Below, piece after piece: positions 6,938 through 15,005 of a DNA stretch of 36,453 bases. A program made the position numbers and the translations under genes. Numbering within the stretch: the stretch's first letter is position 1; each line of letters begins with the position of its first letter. This DNA comes from a bacterium. Its GTDB lineage: Bacteria > Actinomycetota > Thermoleophilia > Solirubrobacterales > Solirubrobacteraceae. Below the pieces are notes generated by a model, which saw only the letters and a program-made list of their open reading frames with translations, was not told where the DNA came from and made no database searches. Location: the NCBI GenBank assembly GCA_021323635.1, contig JAJPKQ010000016.1:1-36453 (forward strand), written 5' to 3'.

Positions 6938-7912
6938 CTAGCGCTGCAGGAGCATCGAGCGTGCCACGCGCAGCGTCGCGCTGCTCCCGCTCGCCTTTGC
7001 AGTCGCGCTGATCTGCAGCCGCACGCGCTTGCGGTGGGCGAGGAGCGCGCGCAGGCGCCGGAGCGCTGCTCCGCGGAAGCGGCAGGTGATGTGCAGGTGA
7101 CCGCCGCCGCTGTCGGCGACCTTGAAGTGTCGCGGCCCGCAGCGCACGATCTTCAGCAGGCTTTGCTTTCTGTGCGGGCCTAGCAGCCAGCCCTGGGCGC
7201 TTGTCTGGCCCGAGCAGGCGACCGTGCAGTCGATGAGGTAGGCGAGCGCCGTGCCGCGCAGGTGGATCAGCTTCGCGGCGGTGATGCCGATCCGGGCGCT
7301 CAGGCCCGAGCCCGTCTTCGCGCCGGCCGACCAGGATGTCCTCGATCCGCTGGTGGGCGCTGAGCCCGATGGCGGCGCTTCCTGGGCCGGCGGCGGTTCA
7401 GGTGTGGCTGCGGGCGGCAGCACAACCAGGGTGTGGGCCTTTTCATGGAGCGAGGTGGTGTAGAAGGTGCGTTCTTCGCCGCCGCAGGAGGGCAGGGCGC
7501 GCTTGAAGGAGGCGATCCAGTACACCGTCCCTTCGCTCGCCGCGGCGCGCGTTGAGACGAAGACGTACTTGGTTGCGTTTTCGCCGTGCTCTGCGCTGCC
7601 CGTCCCCTGGTCGATGTCCGGATGCGGGGTCTTTTCTTCGGAGGAGGCGACATAGAAGGTGAGCGGCCATTCTGATTCCGCTTCGAAGCTGACGGAGGAG
7701 CCGCGCGCCACTTCCGCGCCGGTTTCCGGCTTTGCCTGCTTGCCGATCGCGTACGCCGCAAGTTCGTAGATGAGCTTTTCGGCTTCGCAGCTGCTGGAGG
7801 GCGAGGATGTCGTCCCTTCGGCATGCGCAGCGAGGCTCGGGCCAAGGGGCGCGGCGATCGTGGCGACGGCGCCGAGCGCAAGCAGCCCCCTCCTCAACCT
7901 GACCGTCCTCAC
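6938..7912 (-). CDS. Secreted protein of unknown function
   Basis: The chosen start is GTG 7912, giving 324 residues with a good signal peptide (VRTVRLRRGLLALGAVATIA, cleavage likely after AAHA). An in-frame ATG at 7975 would add 21 Ala/Arg-rich residues ahead of the signal and looks wrong. The mature part has a first domain with paired cysteines, a Pro/Ser/Ala linker at about residues 178-210, and a C-terminal domain of about 110 residues with several cysteines and a strongly basic RLRALLAHRKRVRL segment, as in many Thermoleophilia exported proteins. I do not recognise the family. A TACAAT box ends 7 bases before the GTG, so the mRNA may be leaderless. Confidence 0.65.
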   Translation of the reverse strand: MRTVRLRRGLLALGAVATIAAPLGPSLAAHAEGTTSSPSSSCEAEKLIYELAAYAIGKQAKPETGAEVARGSSVSFEAESEWPLTFYVASSEEKTPHPDIDQGTGSAEHGENATKYVFVSTRAAASEGTVYWIASFKRALPSCGGEERTFYTTSLHEKAHTLVVLPPAATPEPPPAQEAPPSGSAPTSGSRTSWSAGAKTGSGLSARIGITAAKLIHLRGTALAYLIDCTVACSGQTSAQGWLLGPHRKQSLLKIVRCGPRHFKVADSGGGHLHITCRFRGAALRRLRALLAHRKRVRLQISATAKASGSSATLRVARSMLLQR

Positions 7913-7919
7913 AGCTGCG

Positions 7920-7925
7920 ATTGTA
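7920..7925 (-). promoter_or_regulatory. Possible -10 box for a leaderless transcript
   Basis: On the minus strand TACAAT (five of six to TATAAT) ends seven bases before GTG 7912. Transcription starting at the usual distance would begin at or next to the start codon. No convincing -35 is visible in the very GC-rich upstream sequence. Confidence 0.4.
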
Positions 7926-8020
7926 GAGGCCCGCTGCGCCGCTCGCGCCGCAGCGCGGGCGCGCGCCGCCTGCAAGGTGAGCCCGCCAGCGCTCCGGCTG
8001 AGCGCGGGCGAGCGTTGCGG

Positions 8021-8478: not shown

Positions 8479-10302
8479 TCAGCGCGCCTGCGGCGCCTGG
8501 AGCATCGCAAGCGCGCGCTGCCCGAGCGCGCGCAGCGACTCAGAGAGCGCTGCGGAGAGCGCGAGCGCGCTTGGGGCGACGTTCTGTGAGCCGCCTGCGA
8601 AGAGCGCCGGGGGGCGTGTGTGCGGTGGCATCGCCGCCGCTGCACCCCCGCCGCCGCCCGCCGCCGCAGGCGCGCTGTGGCTGCTTTCTGTCGCTATTGC
8701 CGCAGTGCTCTGCGCAGCTTCGCCGCGTGTGCCGTCGCCGGCTTCTGCGCCGATCGGCGCGCCGATCGGCAGCGGACGGGAGGCAAGCGCGGGCAGGACC
8801 TCCGCGGTCACCCACACCGGCGTCTGGCTGCTTTCGCGCGAGTAGCGGAAGGCGCCGTCCGGCTCCTGGAGTGAGAGCAGGTAGGAGAGAGCGCTGCGTC
8901 CCCCTGCCCGTGCCAGCGAGCCACCCTGCACCCCGACGGCGTCAAGGCCCTGCAGCGCCCAGGCGGTCGATTGGCTGTTTGCTTCCCCGCCTGCTTCCTG
9001 GGGGAAGCCGCCATCGCCGCCCTGCAGCGCGCGCAGATAGGCGATCGCATGCGCGACGATGGGCCCTGAGCGTACACCTGCGGCGGCAAGCGCCTCAAGC
9101 ACAGCGCCGGTGTCGTCAGCATCGGAGCGCGCCCCGCCGCCCGCGCTGCGCGCTCCATAGGAGAAGCCGCCGTCGCTGCCCTGCTGGCCTTCAAGCCAGC
9201 GCGCGAGCCGCTGGATTGCCGGGCTCTCTTGCGCGATTCCCGCTGCGCGCAGGGCGAGGATCGCAAAGGCGCTCAGGTTGACCTGCTCTGAGATCGAGCC
9301 GTCCGGCGCCTGCGCGGCAAGCAGCTCAGACTCGAGGTTGCGCGCGCCCAGGGCGCGCGCATCAAGCCCGCAGGCGTGAAGGGCGAGCATCGTGCGCTCG
9401 ATGTCGCCCGGGCCTTCGAGCGAGGCGGCACCCGCGCGCAGCGCCTGCGGCAGCGAGTGGCCGTCGCGCGCAAGCCTCGCCGGATCGCGGCCTGCGCCGG
9501 CAAGCCCGATCGCCGCCCAGGCGCTGTAGAGCTCGCTTTCGGCTGCTCCCGGCGCTTGGCCGAAGCCACCGCTCGGCCCCTGCGCGCGTTCGAGGTAGGC
9601 GCGCCCGCGTGCAAGCGCGCTGGCGGTCGCTGTGGCGCGGGCGGCCGGCGGCGCCACCGCGAAGGCCATCAGCAGCGCGCACAGCGCGCCTGAAACGGGC
9701 AGCCATTCGACGTGCAGACGCCTCCGCACGCGCGCGAGCACTGCCGCGAGCTCAGGGGCGAAGGCAAGACCGAAGAGGAACGTCGCAACGACGTCCGTGA
9801 GGTCGAATGGCAGCCCTTCGGCCACGCGCGCCAGATAGGCGGAAGGCGTGTAGATGCCACCGAGCGAGAAGACGTAGAGGTTCATGATCTCCTTTGCGAT
9901 CGCCGCCGAGAGAGCACAGGCTCCCGCCAGCGCCACGCGTGGCATGCGCCGGCCGCTGAGCGACCCCGCAAGCGCTCCCAGCAGCCCGACCAGCCCCCAG
10001 GCCGCCATCTGCCAGGGCGTGTAAGGGCCCTCGCCGAGCAGGATGTTTGAGGCGAGCATGCCGAGGGCGCCGACTGTGAACCCCTCCAAGGGCCCGAGGG
10101 CAAAGCCGCAGGTGAAGGTCATCGCGGTGATCGGCTTCACCTCCGGCAGTGCCGCGAAGGCATCGCGCCCGAGCGCCGCAAGCGCCGCCAGCGTGGCGAC
10201 CAGCGCAATCGTCCGCGCCGAGGGGCGTGAGCGCTCAAAGGCTGCCCAGCCGACGCCCAGCACGAGCGCGACCACTACAAAGGAGGCAAGCGGCCAGCTC
10301 AC
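8479..10302 (-). CDS. ECF S component fused to an alpha/alpha-toroid (transcobalamin alpha-like) domain
   Basis: This is the predicted substrate-binding subunit of a B12 importer, 607 residues. Residues 1-195 are an integral-membrane S component with five to six hydrophobic helices and the conserved-looking LPEVKPITA, LGPLEGF and GEGPYTPWQMAAWG stretches. A further helix at about 201-220 would lead to the outside. Residues about 225-508 are prenyltransferase/squalene-cyclase-type repeats (each with a Q-x-x-DGGF or DGSI-like turn, at about 241, 331, 373, 427 and 479), an alpha/alpha barrel like that of intrinsic factor and transcobalamin. The last 100 residues are Ala/Gly/Ser-rich. GTG 10302 overlaps the ATPase stop as GTGA. 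Substrate inferred from the riboswitch. Confidence 0.85.
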   Translation of the reverse strand: MSWPLASFVVVALVLGVGWAAFERSRPSARTIALVATLAALAALGRDAFAALPEVKPITAMTFTCGFALGPLEGFTVGALGMLASNILLGEGPYTPWQMAAWGLVGLLGALAGSLSGRRMPRVALAGACALSAAIAKEIMNLYVFSLGGIYTPSAYLARVAEGLPFDLTDVVATFLFGLAFAPELAAVLARVRRRLHVEWLPVSGALCALLMAFAVAPPAARATATASALARGRAYLERAQGPSGGFGQAPGAAESELYSAWAAIGLAGAGRDPARLARDGHSLPQALRAGAASLEGPGDIERTMLALHACGLDARALGARNLESELLAAQAPDGSISEQVNLSAFAILALRAAGIAQESPAIQRLARWLEGQQGSDGGFSYGARSAGGGARSDADDTGAVLEALAAAGVRSGPIVAHAIAYLRALQGGDGGFPQEAGGEANSQSTAWALQGLDAVGVQGGSLARAGGRSALSYLLSLQEPDGAFRYSRESSQTPVWVTAEVLPALASRPLPIGAPIGAEAGDGTRGEAAQSTAAIATESSHSAPAAAGGGGGAAAAMPPHTRPPALFAGGSQNVAPSALALSAALSESLRALGQRALAMLQAPQAR

Positions 10303-11990
10303 CTCAGGCCCTCCTCCTGTGCCGCCACGCCGTCTCGCTGGGGCTGCTCCTCAGCGAGCTCCCTCAGCAGCGCAGCCCCCTGCGCGGGCAGCAGCGGCGT
10401 CTGCTCCTCTGCGCAGTCGGCAAAGGTGCGCGCGATCTCGGTCGCGAAGTACCAGCCGCCCGCAAGCAGCTCGCTTGCGGGGCCATCAGCGATGACCCTG
10501 CCATCAGCCATCATCACCACACGCTCGGCGAGAGCCGCGGCCAGCTGCGGGTCGTGGGTGGCGAGGATCACCGCCTGTCCTTGTGCCGCGCGCGCGTGCA
10601 GCTCGGCGATGAGCGCCGCGCGCGCGCTCCCGTCCATCCCACGCGTGGGCTCGTCGAGCGCGAGCACCGCCGGGGGCTCGGGCGCGTCGCAGACGATCGC
10701 AAGCGCCAGGCGCTGGCGCTGACCGCCGGATAGGTCGCGCGGGTTGCGCGCTGCAAGGTCGCTCAGGCGCTGGGAGGCCAGCGCCGCGGGCGAGGCCTCT
10801 TCGCAGACGCGCTCGTGGATCAGGTAGTCGTTCGGGCTCTGAAGCATCAGCGCGACGCGGCCGGCGCAGCTGATGCGCCCGCGCGTGGGCTCAAGCAGCC
10901 CCGCTGCGTGGCGCAGCAGGGTGGACTTGCCGGCGCCGTTTCGCCCCATCAGCGCCACCCGCTCCCCGGCGGCGACGCGCAGCGTTGCGCCGCAGAGAAT
11001 CGCCGGTCCCTCTCGAAGCTCGTGCCAGACCGAGTCAAGGGCGAGGACGGGCTGCTGCGGATCTCCCGCCGGCGCCCGTGGCGGACGCCTCGCCTGCGCG
11101 CGGGCGCGCGGCTGCTTGACGGCGCCAGCGGCAATCGCGGCAAGCTGCGTGCGCGCCTCCTTGACGCCCACCGGCAGCGGCGCCTGTCCGGCAAGCGAGA
11201 AGGCAAGCGCCGCGGGCGGGAGCAGCTGTGGGGCAGAGCGCGCGGCGTGCTTTAGGAAGGCGTGCGGATCGCCGCAGAAGGCAAGCTCGCCGCCCTCAAG
11301 GGCGATCACCCGATCAGCATCGGCCAGCACGCGCTCGCTGCGATGCTCAGAGAGCAGGACCGTGAGGCCGAAGTCGCGGTTCAGCCGCCGCAGCAGCCCG
11401 ATCAGCTCGTCGCCTGCCACCGGGTCAAGCTGTGAGGTGGGCTCGTCGAGGAGCGCGAGGCGCGGCCTGCCGATCAGCGCCGCAGCGAGCGCAACCCGCT
11501 GGGCCTCGCCGCCGGAGAGGCCTGTGGTTGCTCGATCGAGAAGGTCGTCGATCGCAAGCGCCAGCGCGACCTCCTCGATCGCGAGCGCTGCGGCTGCGCC
11601 GCGCAAGCCCCTGCCCTCGGCGGCCAGCGCCAGCTCCCCGTGCACGGTTGAGCAGATCAGCTGCGTCTCGGGGTCCTGGAAGAGCACACCCACGTGGCGA
11701 CCGAGCAGGGCGGGCGGGGTGGTGCGCGTGTCCTGCCCACAGACAAGCACGCGCCCGGCAAAGGCGCCGCCGTGGAAGTGGGGCACAAGGCCGCAGGCTG
11801 CGCGCAGGAGCGTCGACTTGCCGGCGCCCGTTCCGCCCACCAGCAGGCAGAGCTCGCCTGCAGGCAGCGTCAGCTGCAGCCCCTGCAGCGCCGGCTCAGC
11901 GGCGCCTGGGTAGGTGTAGGTGAGCCCTTCGCATGTGAGCGCCGGCGCGCGTGGCTGCAGCGATCCCTGCGCTTGTTGGCGCCGCGACAC
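10299..11990 (-). CDS. ECF transporter ATPase, two fused nucleotide-binding domains (EcfA-like)
   Basis: The 563-residue protein would power the ECF importer from the cytoplasmic side. Two complete ABC domains are seen. The first has Walker A GGTGAGKST (52-60), a Q-loop near 104, signature LSGGE (158-162), Walker B LLDEP (180-184) and H-loop His216. The second has Walker A GRNGAGKST (349-357), a Q-loop near 384, signature LSGGQ (420-424), Walker B ALDEP (444-448) and His479. In many ECF systems these are separate EcfA1 and EcfA2 proteins; here they are one chain. GTG 11990 directly follows the EcfT stop, and the 3' end overlaps the S-component start by four bases, so all are translationally linked. 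Confidence 0.93.
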   Translation of the reverse strand: MSRRQQAQGSLQPRAPALTCEGLTYTYPGAAEPALQGLQLTLPAGELCLLVGGTGAGKSTLLRAACGLVPHFHGGAFAGRVLVCGQDTRTTPPALLGRHVGVLFQDPETQLICSTVHGELALAAEGRGLRGAAAALAIEEVALALAIDDLLDRATTGLSGGEAQRVALAAALIGRPRLALLDEPTSQLDPVAGDELIGLLRRLNRDFGLTVLLSEHRSERVLADADRVIALEGGELAFCGDPHAFLKHAARSAPQLLPPAALAFSLAGQAPLPVGVKEARTQLAAIAAGAVKQPRARAQARRPPRAPAGDPQQPVLALDSVWHELREGPAILCGATLRVAAGERVALMGRNGAGKSTLLRHAAGLLEPTRGRISCAGRVALMLQSPNDYLIHERVCEEASPAALASQRLSDLAARNPRDLSGGQRQRLALAIVCDAPEPPAVLALDEPTRGMDGSARAALIAELHARAAQGQAVILATHDPQLAAALAERVVMMADGRVIADGPASELLAGGWYFATEIARTFADCAEEQTPLLPAQGAALLRELAEEQPQRDGVAAQEEGLR

Positions 11991-12995
11991 CTAGCGAGCC
12001 TCCCCGGCGGCGCTGAGCACAGCGCGCCTGCCTGCCGCAGCGCCCGCGCTGCGCGGCACGATCCCGCGGCGATCGGCGAACGGCGCGAGCATCAGTGCGC
12101 AGATGCCCGCGCCGACTGCTGCGGTCCCCGCTGCGATCGGCGCCTGCGCCAGCGGATAGGCGACGTAGCGGTCGAGGCCTGAGAGCTGCGCGCCGGCCAC
12201 AAGCGCGAGCAGCGAGCCCGCTGAGCCTAGGAACGCGAGCTCGTGGCGGGAGAGCGCGCGGTGGGGTGAGCCGCGCAAGCGCTCTGGCGCGCGGCGCAGC
12301 GGGTCGCCCAGGCGCCGGGGCGCTTGCGGGTGCTGGTCGGCTGCCCCGCGCAGCTCGAGGGTCGCGGCGACCTCGAGCGCGCGGTCGAGCGCGCTGGTGA
12401 GCGTTGCGCGCAGGATCAGCGCCTGAGCGCGCCGACGTCCGAGGCGCTGCGGTCGCGTCTGCAGCGCCTGCGCAAAGCGCGCGCTGTCTGCGGCAAGCAG
12501 CGGGATCATGCGCAGCGCAAGCGTCGCGGTCAGAGCCGAGCGCGCGGTTGCCCTGCGTGCGCCCGCAAGCAGCTGATCGGGGTCGACCGCCCCGGCAAAG
12601 AGCGCGCAGCCGAGGGTCACGGCCGTGACCTTGAGCGCGATCACGACGCCATAGAGCAGCGCCTCGACGCTCAGATCACCCTGGCCGAAGGGGCCGAGGT
12701 CACCGAGGCGGGCGAAGATCGTGATCCCCTCTCTGGAGACCAGTACGTTGACGATCACGATCGAGATGTCCAGATAGAGCGTGGCGCGCAATGTGCGCGC
12801 CAGGCGCCGCAGCAGCCCGGAGGCCACGCCGGCAAGCACGATCGAGAGGTCCAGCAGCGCAAGCAGGAGCGGATGAGAGAGCACGAGCGCGCTTGCCAGC
12901 AGCGATGCGCACCAGAGCGCGCCGATGCTCGCGCGGGTGGCGTGCAGCGGGCTTGCGAGGCGCTGGTAGGAAAGCGCCAGTCGACTTGCGCTCAT
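11991..12995 (-). CDS. ECF transporter T component (EcfT/CbiQ family)
   Basis: This 334-residue integral membrane subunit couples the ATPase to the S component. The start is ATG 12995, whose ATGA overlaps the stop of the lipoprotein gene; a longer frame from 13127 is overlap artefact. The protein has hydrophobic helices at about 35-70, 75-90, 115-140 and two near 255-315. The cytoplasmic coupling region carries LALRMIPLLAAD and LELRGAA, the latter at the position of the Ala-Arg-Gly type motif of the family. The stop TAG touches the GTG of the ATPase gene. Confidence 0.88.
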   Translation of the reverse strand: MSASRLALSYQRLASPLHATRASIGALWCASLLASALVLSHPLLLALLDLSIVLAGVASGLLRRLARTLRATLYLDISIVIVNVLVSREGITIFARLGDLGPFGQGDLSVEALLYGVVIALKVTAVTLGCALFAGAVDPDQLLAGARRATARSALTATLALRMIPLLAADSARFAQALQTRPQRLGRRRAQALILRATLTSALDRALEVAATLELRGAADQHPQAPRRLGDPLRRAPERLRGSPHRALSRHELAFLGSAGSLLALVAGAQLSGLDRYVAYPLAQAPIAAGTAAVGAGICALMLAPFADRRGIVPRSAGAAAGRRAVLSAAGEAR

Positions 12996-13930
12996 CGCTG
13001 CTCGGGCAGCGGGATGATCGAGCCCTGCGAGCTGATGGCGATCGCGAAGTGGTTGCGCAGATCCGCTTCGCTGAGCGCCTGGGCGGCAAGCAGCGCGCCT
13101 TCTGCATCGGTCCCGGTGAGCACCCACAGCGGTTCCTCGCCCGGGTAGCGCACCGCGGCAAGCAGCCCCGCGCTGCCGCGCAGGACCTGTACGACCTGGC
13201 CGCGGACGCCGAGCAGCTCGATCGCCTTGCCGCCTTCTGCGATGCGCGCATAGACGCCGCTTGCCGAGGGCCCGCGGGTCAACGCCGAGGTTGCAGGCAG
13301 AACCCGAACAGCGCTCCAGGGGCCGACCGCCAAGCGCAGGGTGTCGGGCGTTTCGCCACCCGGTCCCACAGCGGAGACGCCCGCGGGGATGCCGAGCGCG
13401 TCGATGCGCTTGATCACCGTCCGGCAGGCTCTGCTTTCAACTTCGGCGCATTCGATCCGGATCGGTAGGTGCTTGCCTTCGATGCCGTTGCGGAAGGGCT
13501 CCGGATAGGAGCCGACGACCGCGGGCGTTTGCTCGGCCGCGCCCCAGTCGTGGAGGTCCCACCAGATCACCTCGCCGGCGCGCAGCTTCGTCTCCGCCGC
13601 TCCCTTCGGCGCTTCGCTGCCGTTGACGTAATAGAACCAATCGCGTGGTTCGCCGTCTGATTCGTGGCCTCCGGAGAAGCCGTTGATCGACTCCACGAAG
13701 CCGCCGCTGTAGCGGGTGCTGACCGCGTAGCTGCGCATCAGCAGGCTCATGATCGTTTCTTCCCCGACCGCGGTGGGGGTGCTGCGCGGGGGCACGCTCT
13801 GGGCGCCGAAGTTGCGCGTCACGGTGAGGGTGAGAGCGCCGGGCGCCCTGCCGGCGCCAAGGCCGCAGCCTGCAAGCAGGCCGACTGAGGCTGAGGCGCC
13901 AAGCAGGGCTGCGATGCGGCGCGCAGGCAT
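12992..13930 (-). CDS. Lipoprotein with transcobalamin-type beta domain (DUF4430)
   Basis: The 312-residue protein has a lipoprotein signal (lipobox LLAGC, Cys22), so it should be anchored on the outer face of the membrane. Residues about 32-131 match the DUF4430 pattern found in the C-terminal domain of transcobalamin and intrinsic factor: SYAVSTRYSGGFVESINGF, DWFYYVNGSEAPKG, then LRAGEVIWWDLHDW. The remaining ~180 residues form an extra domain I do not recognise. It follows the first beta-domain gene by six bases and overlaps the EcfT start by four. Role inferred: capture of B12 or presentation to the toroid-bearing S component. Confidence 0.82.
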   Translation of the reverse strand: MPARRIAALLGASASVGLLAGCGLGAGRAPGALTLTVTRNFGAQSVPPRSTPTAVGEETIMSLLMRSYAVSTRYSGGFVESINGFSGGHESDGEPRDWFYYVNGSEAPKGAAETKLRAGEVIWWDLHDWGAAEQTPAVVGSYPEPFRNGIEGKHLPIRIECAEVESRACRTVIKRIDALGIPAGVSAVGPGGETPDTLRLAVGPWSAVRVLPATSALTRGPSASGVYARIAEGGKAIELLGVRGQVVQVLRGSAGLLAAVRYPGEEPLWVLTGTDAEGALLAAQALSEADLRNHFAIAISSQGSIIPLPEQR

Positions 13931-13936
13931 CGGGCA

Positions 13937-14683
13937 CTAGCGCACGACGGTCAGGGCAAGCTCGTCGCGGATCGCGCCAGGGGCGCTCACGCGCACCACG
14001 AAGCGCCCGGCTCTGCGCAGATGCACGCGCACGGTCCCTGATGCGCCGACCGTCAGCGCCTTGCCCAGGCCGGCGATCGAGGCTCCCTTGGCGGCGCTGG
14101 GGGCGCCCTTGGCGTTTTCCAGCGAAAGCACGTGCAGGGTGATCGTCTGCCCGACGCGCGCGCGCTTGGGGCCGCGCAGCTCCAGCACGGGCGGGTCGAA
14201 GAGGCCCTGCGGGCACTGCGTTGCGGCTTCCTTCGAGCACTGCGGGAAGAACAGCAGGTGCTCGCCGGCGTGCAGCTTTGCCGAGCAGATGCCGACGGTC
14301 GCCGGCTTGGAGTCGATCCAGAAGGACCAGTAGTAGGGGGATTCGAAGCTGAAGGCTTCGCCGTCGATCGCTTCCACCGAGTAGCCGAGGCCGCTGTAGT
14401 ACTTGCCCTGCCAGCGACCGTGGGTGGCCTGCTGCAGCGCCGCCGCTGCGGTGACGCCGGTGCAGGCATCTTCCGGCTTGCCGGCGGGATCGACGCTTTC
14501 GGACTTGACGCTGATCGCCGTTTCGGCAAGCAGCGTGCGCTTGGCCCCCTCCACGCGGATGAAGACCTTCACGCCACCCTTGGCGGGTGGCTTGGCCTTG
14601 TGCGCGAGGGCGCCGGATGGCAGCAGCAGCGCAAGCGCAAGCGCGCATCCGCAGGTGGAGGCCAAGTGTGAGCGACTGAACAT
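13937..14683 (-). CDS. Exported protein with transcobalamin-type beta domain (DUF4430-like)
   Basis: This is the first gene after the cobalamin riboswitch, 248 residues. A signal peptide (hydrophobic 12-27, cleavage after ALAH/A) lacks a lipobox, so the protein is probably released or loosely held. Residues about 37-147 are DUF4430-like: YYSGLGYSVEAIDGEAF, YYWSFWIDSKPATVGIC, then LHAGEHLLFF. Residues about 164-248 look like an Ig-type beta sandwich (LELRGPKRARVGQTITLHV, later RRAGRFVVRV). The GAGGAAAGGGG ribosome-binding site at 14690-14700 is only about 20 bases beyond the riboswitch, a position where its folding could hide it. Probable role: external B12-binding partner. Confidence 0.8.
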   Translation of the reverse strand: MFSRSHLASTCGCALALALLLPSGALAHKAKPPAKGGVKVFIRVEGAKRTLLAETAISVKSESVDPAGKPEDACTGVTAAAALQQATHGRWQGKYYSGLGYSVEAIDGEAFSFESPYYWSFWIDSKPATVGICSAKLHAGEHLLFFPQCSKEAATQCPQGLFDPPVLELRGPKRARVGQTITLHVLSLENAKGAPSAAKGASIAGLGKALTVGASGTVRVHLRRAGRFVVRVSAPGAIRDELALTVVR

Positions 14684-14721
14684 GAACTACCCCTTTCCTC
14701 GAGGGCTGGCTTTTGGATTTG

Positions 14722-14899
14722 GGCCGGCGGCAGGTCTCCTGGCTCCCGGGCCAACCCTTCGCGCCTTCCCGGCGGCTTGCGCCTGCCAGTGGCTGCCCCT
14801 GCCGGTCGCCTTCAGGCGGGCGGAGCGTTGCGTGGGCATCCCCGGCTACAGTGGCGGGTCCGCGCCGGCCTCACACCGGACTTCCCTTGACCACCGACC
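14722..14899 (-). promoter_or_regulatory. Cobalamin (B12) riboswitch
   Basis: Reading the minus strand, a closing stem pairs 14891-14899 (GGTCGGTGG) with 14722-14730 (CCGCCGGCC), nine pairs including G-U. Inside are GGGAAGTCCGGTGTGAGG, the core GCCACTG (14849-14855), a GGGAAGGCGCGAAGG segment, and the B12 box GAGCCAGGAGACCTGCCG (14728-14745), all in standard order. The five-gene ECF/DUF4430 operon begins 39 bases downstream. No terminator hairpin with a T-run is seen between, so control is probably by masking the ribosome-binding site: CCCTCGAGGAAAGGGG there can fold on itself. Confidence 0.95.
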
Positions 14900-15005
14900 G
14901 ATTCGGCGCCATCCTATCAACGCGGTCCTGCGCGTGGCCTGCGCGCCCGCGGTCGCCCTCTAAAGTGTTGACAGTGCGAGCCTTGCCTGAGCGCGCAGGA
15001 TCCGG

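Follow-up and report, generated by a model that had tools for sequence, protein, structure and literature searches.

We analysed a window of 36,453 nucleotides (contig JAJPKQ010000016.1 of assembly GCA_021323635.1) from a soil bacterium of the Solirubrobacteraceae, in which a cobalamin riboswitch stands ahead of five tightly packed minus-strand genes. These genes very probably form a B12 or corrinoid import operon of the energy-coupling factor (ECF) type, with an S component of the CbrT family. Judged from sequence, the operon joins a known kind of importer to a widespread, apparently undescribed, putative capture module, which consists of an alpha6/alpha6 barrel on the S component and of exported proteins carrying DUF4430 domains. 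Computation supports the regulatory element, the importer family, the export signals, the barrel fold and the co-occurrence of the parts. That the barrel and the DUF4430 domains act together on the same corrinoid is a prediction that we favour modestly. The features of the locus are as follows.

14712-14928, minus: cobalamin riboswitch aptamer (RF00174, 57.9 bits, E 5.3e-12, full model, 1-189 of 189)
13937-14683, minus: exported DUF4430 protein 1, 248 amino acids (aa), N-terminal signal peptide predicted from sequence, no lipobox
14249-14398, minus: DUF4430 match in protein 1, residues 96-145 (PF14478, marginal)
12992-13930, minus: DUF4430 lipoprotein, 312 aa, lipobox LLAGC (PF14478, E 1.4e-13, 51.5 bits)
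13550-13756, minus: DUF4430 domain of the lipoprotein, residues 59-127 (profile positions 3-71 of 72)
11991-12995, minus: EcfT, energy-coupling transmembrane subunit (PF02361 CbiQ, E 1.1e-15)
10299-11990, minus: double ECF ATPase, two ATPase domains in one chain (two ABC_tran domains)
8479-10302, minus: CbrT-type S component fused to the alpha6/alpha6 barrel, 607 aa (Pfam ECF S component and squalene-cyclase/prenyltransferase toroid repeats)
9703-10302, minus: S component domain, residues 1-200 (profile match to 6fnp_A)
9637-9702, minus: signal-peptide-like membrane helix between S domain and barrel, residues 201-222 (hydropathy over 67 relatives)
8773-9642, minus: alpha6/alpha6 barrel, residues 221-510, predicted extracellular (AlphaFold2, predicted local distance difference test score (pLDDT) mostly 95-98)
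8482-8772, minus: low-complexity C-terminal tail of the S component-barrel protein (from sequence; pLDDT drops to 62 at residues 511-520)

Operon organization and the ECF importer

The riboswitch aptamer scores above the RF00174 gathering score of 31.5 bits, and the first start codon lies 28 bases downstream of it. From the riboswitch onwards the genes encode DUF4430 protein 1, the DUF4430 lipoprotein, EcfT, the double ECF ATPase and the S component-barrel protein, with spacings of +6, -4, 0 and -4 bases. An earlier reading of the window, made from the sequence only, had proposed a riboswitch-controlled ECF importer for B12, encoded by five genes with four-base overlaps or gaps of six bases or less. 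The RF00174 score, the Pfam assignments of the individual genes and the spacings (a gap of 6, an overlap of 4, a gap of 0 and an overlap of 4) bear out this layout, and the position of RF00174 upstream together with the membership of the S component in the CbrT family bears out the type of importer. Most of its coordinates were also right, the aptamer extending to 14928 rather than 14899 and EcfT starting at 12995. Chance or artefact can be ruled out as the source of this arrangement, as both the gene order and the riboswitch recur in relatives.

Every part of an ECF transporter is encoded here, namely EcfT, two ECF ATPase domains and an S component. The best NCBIfam matches of the double ATPase are TIGR04521 and TIGR04520 (ECF ATPase), under the equivalog cut-off. 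When a profile of the S component built from 16 relatives was compared with all PDB sequences, positions 28-200 matched 6fnp_A (ECF-CbrT) at E 3.4e-25, while the next-best match, the riboflavin S component 3p5n, reached E 0.038. Since the profile matches the cobalamin transporter so much better, the riboflavin label that Pfam attaches to the S domain was rejected as generic. The S component falls within the CbrT sequence family, a type of transporter reportedly predicted by Rodionov in 2009. The structure 6fnp is that of ECF-CbrT from Lactobacillus delbrueckii, for which transport of both cobalamin and cobinamide has been shown (PMC5997447). Cobalamin would be the predicted substrate in the window as well, given the riboswitch, the CbrT family and a host without CobJ (see below).

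The barrel on the S component

The S component and the toroid repeats share one 607-aa chain, so that the barrel is carried by the transporter itself, as the earlier reading had held. S components have their C-terminus inside the cell. In the 25 alignment rows inspected, the linker that follows starts with basic residues, continues as a hydrophobic helix and in most rows closes with an A-x-A-like motif. Because this signal-peptide-like helix comes after an S component with a cytoplasmic C-terminus, the barrel is predicted to be extracellular.

An AlphaFold2 model of the S component-barrel protein, made with 67 sequences and ending at residue 520 (of 607), has a mean pLDDT of 91.1. Residues 221-506 form exactly 12 helices in it, a complete alpha6/alpha6 barrel, which is a fold common to many families. 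The N-terminal rim of one helix ring holds an excess of conserved polar residues (19/36, p 0.002), and in the model such a rim cluster is as would be expected for a ligand mouth. The conserved rim comprises D396/D397, N442, Q444 and Q493-W497.

DUF4430 domains of the exported proteins

The DUF4430 assignment differs in strength between the two exported proteins. In protein 1 the PF14478 match is marginal, with 23.5 bits against a cut-off of 23.8, and it passes the cut-off in a six-frame search (25.7 bits). The lipoprotein match is clear; this protein also has a further C-terminal domain without a Pfam match, and its lipobox cysteine (C22) is invariant in 17 relatives. A nearly invariant tryptophan and an aromatic core are conserved in the DUF4430 domain.

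DUF4430 has been described at the C-terminus of transcobalamins (PMC4350170). As a control we used the sequence of human intrinsic factor, verified against PDB 2pmv. PF14478 matches its residues 340-415 almost end to end (model positions 1-71 of 72), with an E value of 0.003 that is below the curated cut-off. A relation between DUF4430 and the intrinsic factor domain is therefore plausible, spanning the whole domain and weak by sequence.

Recurrence and domain shuffling across genomes

Among 80 loci of Solirubrobacterales, those that are sufficiently long keep the order DUF4430, DUF4430, EcfT, ATPase and S component-barrel, and the full-length fusion of S component and barrel is present in 67 loci. 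In 48 of the 53 related genomes that bear DUF4430, this domain lies at most 4 kb from a B12 riboswitch. Other actinobacterial families have DUF4430, EcfT, ATPase and S component followed by the barrel as a separate adjacent gene; the three of these separate barrels that were inspected have a C-terminal membrane anchor, and RF00174 is found upstream in several of the loci. In Streptomyces-like loci, a SCO2321 protein (barrel) and SCO2322 are accompanied by EcfT, a double ATPase and a related S component, with SCO2322-like domains weakly related to DUF4430 (hhalign E 9e-4).

Clostridiales show another arrangement, in which RF00174 is followed by EcfT, ATPase, S component, a secreted single chain of DUF4430 and barrel, and a separate DUF4430 protein. 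Many of these DUF4430-barrel chains have a cell-wall anchor (LPXTG). The clostridial and actinobacterial barrel families are homologous (hhalign 98.7%, E 3.4e-16). Eighteen clostridial fused loci were collected through the protein alone, independently of the riboswitch, and a B12 riboswitch is present at 16 of them. An unfused version occurs in an Oscillospiraceae locus (L113), with riboswitch, barrel, EcfT, ATPase, S component and DUF4430 in that order.

Where the operon has no barrel, one separate barrel gene was found elsewhere in the genome in all six genomes tested. In one of them, that of Solirubrobacter soli, this barrel is closely related (E 1.6e-89) and carries a signal peptide. The survey that the sequence-only reading had suggested as a check thus shows that barrel, DUF4430 and an S component of CbrT type occur side by side in Solirubrobacterales, in further actinobacteria and in Clostridia, accompanied in most cases by a B12 riboswitch. 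Proteins that are fused in some organisms tend to be linked physically or functionally in others. Here one lineage carries the barrel on the S component and another carries it on DUF4430, so that this reasoning points to a physical or functional link between all three. Of all the evidence, this recurrence and reshuffling of the parts weighs most.

Several individual loci depart from these patterns. In one genus (g17; L030, L032, L033, L210 and L214), a distant exported barrel gene stands beside ileS and a large repetitive surface-protein gene. Three clostridial stretches (L173, L174 and L175, of genomes G201, G206 and G097) carry several ECF/S units together with very large surface proteins of up to 1453 aa, which contain multiple barrel and DUF4430 domains. 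No B12 riboswitch was found in two of these three stretches, so some of the clusters may serve another ligand. Two cobalamin riboswitches about 1 kb apart precede the operon in L038 (G054:C25:245005-246346), and at G052:C28:41135-41751 another DUF4430 gene, apart from the main operon, has a cobalamin riboswitch to itself. Records titled Chlamydiae or Bifidobacterium breve (L048, L075, L079 and L081) carry the Solirubrobacterales-type operon and are probably mislabelled metagenome bins.

Probable B12 dependence of the host and a second importer

The genome from which the window comes is 2.6 Mb in size and 97.5% complete, and its near relatives are mostly recorded as metagenome-assembled genomes of Solirubrobacterales. 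It encodes the B12-using enzymes methylmalonyl-CoA mutase and MetH, while CobJ, our one marker of de novo B12 synthesis, was not found above cut-off in this 97.5% complete genome. Since the host uses B12 and is without the CobJ marker, corrinoid import is very likely, and the host should depend on imported corrinoid as far as one marker in a genome of this completeness can tell. In a set of 61 related genomes, those with CobJ have the S component less often (4/11 genomes) than those without it (43/50; Fisher p 0.0016). Restricted to genomes at least 90% complete, the counts are 3/10 and 28/31 (p 0.0005). These tests ignore relatedness among the genomes, and G035, just under the CobJ cut-off, was counted as CobJ-bearing. 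The CobJ-bearing genome G056 retains only the riboswitch, a DUF4430 gene and, behind it, the remains of a barrel interrupted by stop codons (L027, G056:C4:146250-148214), an apparent case of importer decay in a B12 producer.

The ECF system was considered as the sole B12 route of the host and rejected in that role, as a BtuFCD importer is present under a B12 riboswitch of its own; the ECF system is accordingly one of two corrinoid importers. A divergent CbiA/CobB-type gene adjoins the cluster that encodes this second importer (L026, G000:C24:13000-22000).

Proposed mechanism and alternative explanations

In transcobalamin and intrinsic factor, B12 is held between an alpha barrel and a C-terminal beta domain. 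On this analogy, a shortage of B12 would lead the riboswitch to permit expression of the B12-repressed operon, and corrinoid would be bound on the outside of the cell by the exported DUF4430 proteins and the barrel jointly. The DUF4430 domain may cap the mouth of the barrel with the corrinoid lying between both, as in the vertebrate carriers. The tether would set the loaded barrel beside the S component and, because the barrel is tethered there, captured B12 would be concentrated near the S component and handed to it. The ECF module would then topple the S component and deliver B12 inside the cell. Of the two DUF4430 proteins, each may handle its own cobamides, or they may act one after the other. 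A clamp of transcobalamin-like geometry falls, in our estimate, a little short of an even chance. More tentatively still, we suggest that Gram-positives from at least two phyla have, outside the cell, a B12 clamp in two parts that works like transcobalamin and passes its B12 straight to an ECF importer of CbrT type; in that case the vertebrate B12 carriers would represent the animal version, by descent or by convergence.

A number of results weigh against a joint clamp of this kind. In VIA, about 260 residues of the modelled barrel align to squalene-hopene cyclase (Z 27.6, 2.5 A), with drimenyl-diphosphate synthase (Z about 25), oxidosqualene cyclase (about 24) and prenyltransferase beta subunits (about 22) as other matches; transcobalamin is not among the 50 VIA matches listed for this model, nor among the Foldseek matches listed, an absence that tells neither for nor against a relation. 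The sequence profile of the barrel matches squalene-hopene cyclases, prenyltransferases and complement TED domains, not transcobalamin. For the DUF4430 side, hhalign of the bacterial profiles against the single intrinsic factor sequence gave no significant match, and PDB profile searches with the DUF4430 families and with the fused clostridial DUF4430-barrel family did not reach transcobalamin. An AlphaFold2 prediction of the clostridial DUF4430-barrel protein P0006, run without an alignment, had a pLDDT of 34 and was discarded. The corrinoid pocket, the interface between barrel and DUF4430 and the binding of B12 are all putative. Among the six genomes with a separate barrel gene, the barrels of the five other than Solirubrobacter soli are distant relatives only, beside ileS where inspected, and no B12 riboswitch was found near any of the six genes. 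The host has a second cobalamin riboswitch at the head of a BtuF-BtuC-BtuD-CobA-CbiB cluster. Finally, the CbrT of Lactobacillus has high affinity without a barrel or DUF4430 module (PMC5997447), so a capture module is not required for transport as such.

These points can be read in three other ways. The operon may encode a B12 importer in which DUF4430 binds corrinoid (or different cobamides) alone, with the barrel serving the S component as a docking platform or gate. The conservation of DUF4430 with its nearly invariant tryptophan and aromatic core would fit this, as would the presence in the window of two DUF4430 proteins but only one barrel and the operons (L028, L029, L031, L034 and L060) that keep their DUF4430 genes with no barrel within. 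We nevertheless consider it unlikely in view of the Clostridiales, which fuse DUF4430 and barrel in one chain within the same type of operon, and of the separate barrel gene present in every tested genome that is without the fusion. An improbable variant is that the S component carries another B12-related compound (cobinamide, a B12 precursor, the lower-ligand base or an alternative cobamide) and that cobalamin is left to BtuFCD. The second riboswitch-controlled cluster of the same genome speaks for such a division, and CbrT takes both cobalamin and cobinamide (PMC5997447); on the other side, the S component belongs to the CbrT family, and were the ligand cobinamide or another cobamide, the preferred ligand would change while the mechanism stayed the same.

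A third possibility, which we regard as very improbable, is that the barrel only happens to travel with a B12 importer and is in fact an exported enzyme with the fold of type II terpene cyclases, or else a receptor for some other molecule. Squalene-hopene cyclase and drimenyl-diphosphate synthase are indeed the best structural and sequence matches, and the barrel of the window itself has the complete DxDD motif (S-D-A-D-D-T). Conservation of DxDD across the family, as in type II terpene cyclases, was however not found: all three aspartates are present in only 34 of 67 relatives and P0006 has D-x-D-M-T in their place, which argues against a conserved cyclase activity. The usual terpene-cyclase substrates are, moreover, absent outside the cell, and the barrel is tightly linked to the B12 riboswitch and to a CbrT-type S component. 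Joint action of barrel and DUF4430 on a corrinoid remains the explanation we prefer.

Comparison with known systems

With transcobalamin and intrinsic factor the window has in common an alpha6/alpha6 barrel and a DUF4430-type domain in a B12-linked system. The vertebrate proteins (PF01122) have barrel and beta domain in one chain, whereas separate chains are used in the window; the clostridial relatives also have one chain, but with the domain order reversed. The barrel of the window is closest to terpene cyclases in sequence and fold, and its binding of B12 is putative. A Pfam scan at E 0.1 gave no PF01122 match in it, and the barrels of relatives have weak matches in 3 of 67 cases (best E 0.006). 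As PF01122 is not matched, we do not place the system in the transcobalamin family. The sequence-only reading had described the same two folds as transcobalamin, split between proteins, and had proposed a structure prediction of the toroid. DUF4430 in both exported proteins and the predicted complete 12-helix barrel agree with that description, except that the compared folds put terpene cyclases at the top. 'Split' is apt for a barrel on the S component with DUF4430 on separate exported chains, but it should not be taken to mean derivation from a fused state, since separate, S-fused and DUF4430-fused forms all exist.

ECF-CbrT of L. delbrueckii shares EcfT, ECF ATPases and an S component of the same family with the window. 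It uses the shared module of group II transporters and has been described without barrel or DUF4430 partners, whereas the system of the window has a dedicated five-gene operon, a double ATPase, an S-bound barrel and two exported DUF4430 proteins. The Streptomyces SCO2321 and SCO2322 families (NCBIfam NF053823 and NF040672) have been named without a function, and the barrel of the window matches NF053823 at E 6e-18, below its cut-off. In the Streptomyces-like locus the SCO2321 barrel and SCO2322 likewise precede EcfT, a double ATPase and a related S component, but the barrel is a separate exported protein and the SCO2322-like domain is only weakly DUF4430-like. BtuG and BtuH of Bacteroides are surface lipoproteins with a proven function in B12 capture beside an importer (PMC6143338, PMC8941943). 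An exported lipoprotein is involved in both cases, yet Bacteroides uses other families and an outer-membrane TonB transporter where the window has an ECF importer.

Neighbouring genes

The operon is followed after 23 bases by a same-strand gene of the GFA family (PF04828; 8021-8455, minus), which may be transcribed together with it. The interval 6938-7975 (minus) encodes a putative exported protein for which a Pfam scan gave no match.

Significance

For a 2019 survey of the gut (PMC6593275), the known transporters for B12 uptake were BtuFCD and CbrT, and the task of finding B12 transporters in gut genomes was an open problem. In the open-licence literature we found no paper that ties DUF4430 or barrel proteins to bacterial B12 transport by ECF importers; subscription papers fell mostly outside this scope, and a prior mention is possible. 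By what means Gram-positive bacteria collect B12 from outside, where it is scarce, is for the most part an open question. If the proposed clamp is correct, it would give a function to DUF4430 proteins and to the barrel proteins now named squalene-cyclase-like or SCO2321 family. We know of no ECF transporter described with an extracellular substrate-capture domain of its own, and this would be such a case. The natural single-chain version of Clostridiales makes a structural test easy, and with this system the question of where transcobalamin and intrinsic factor came from would gain a concrete lead that can be tested.

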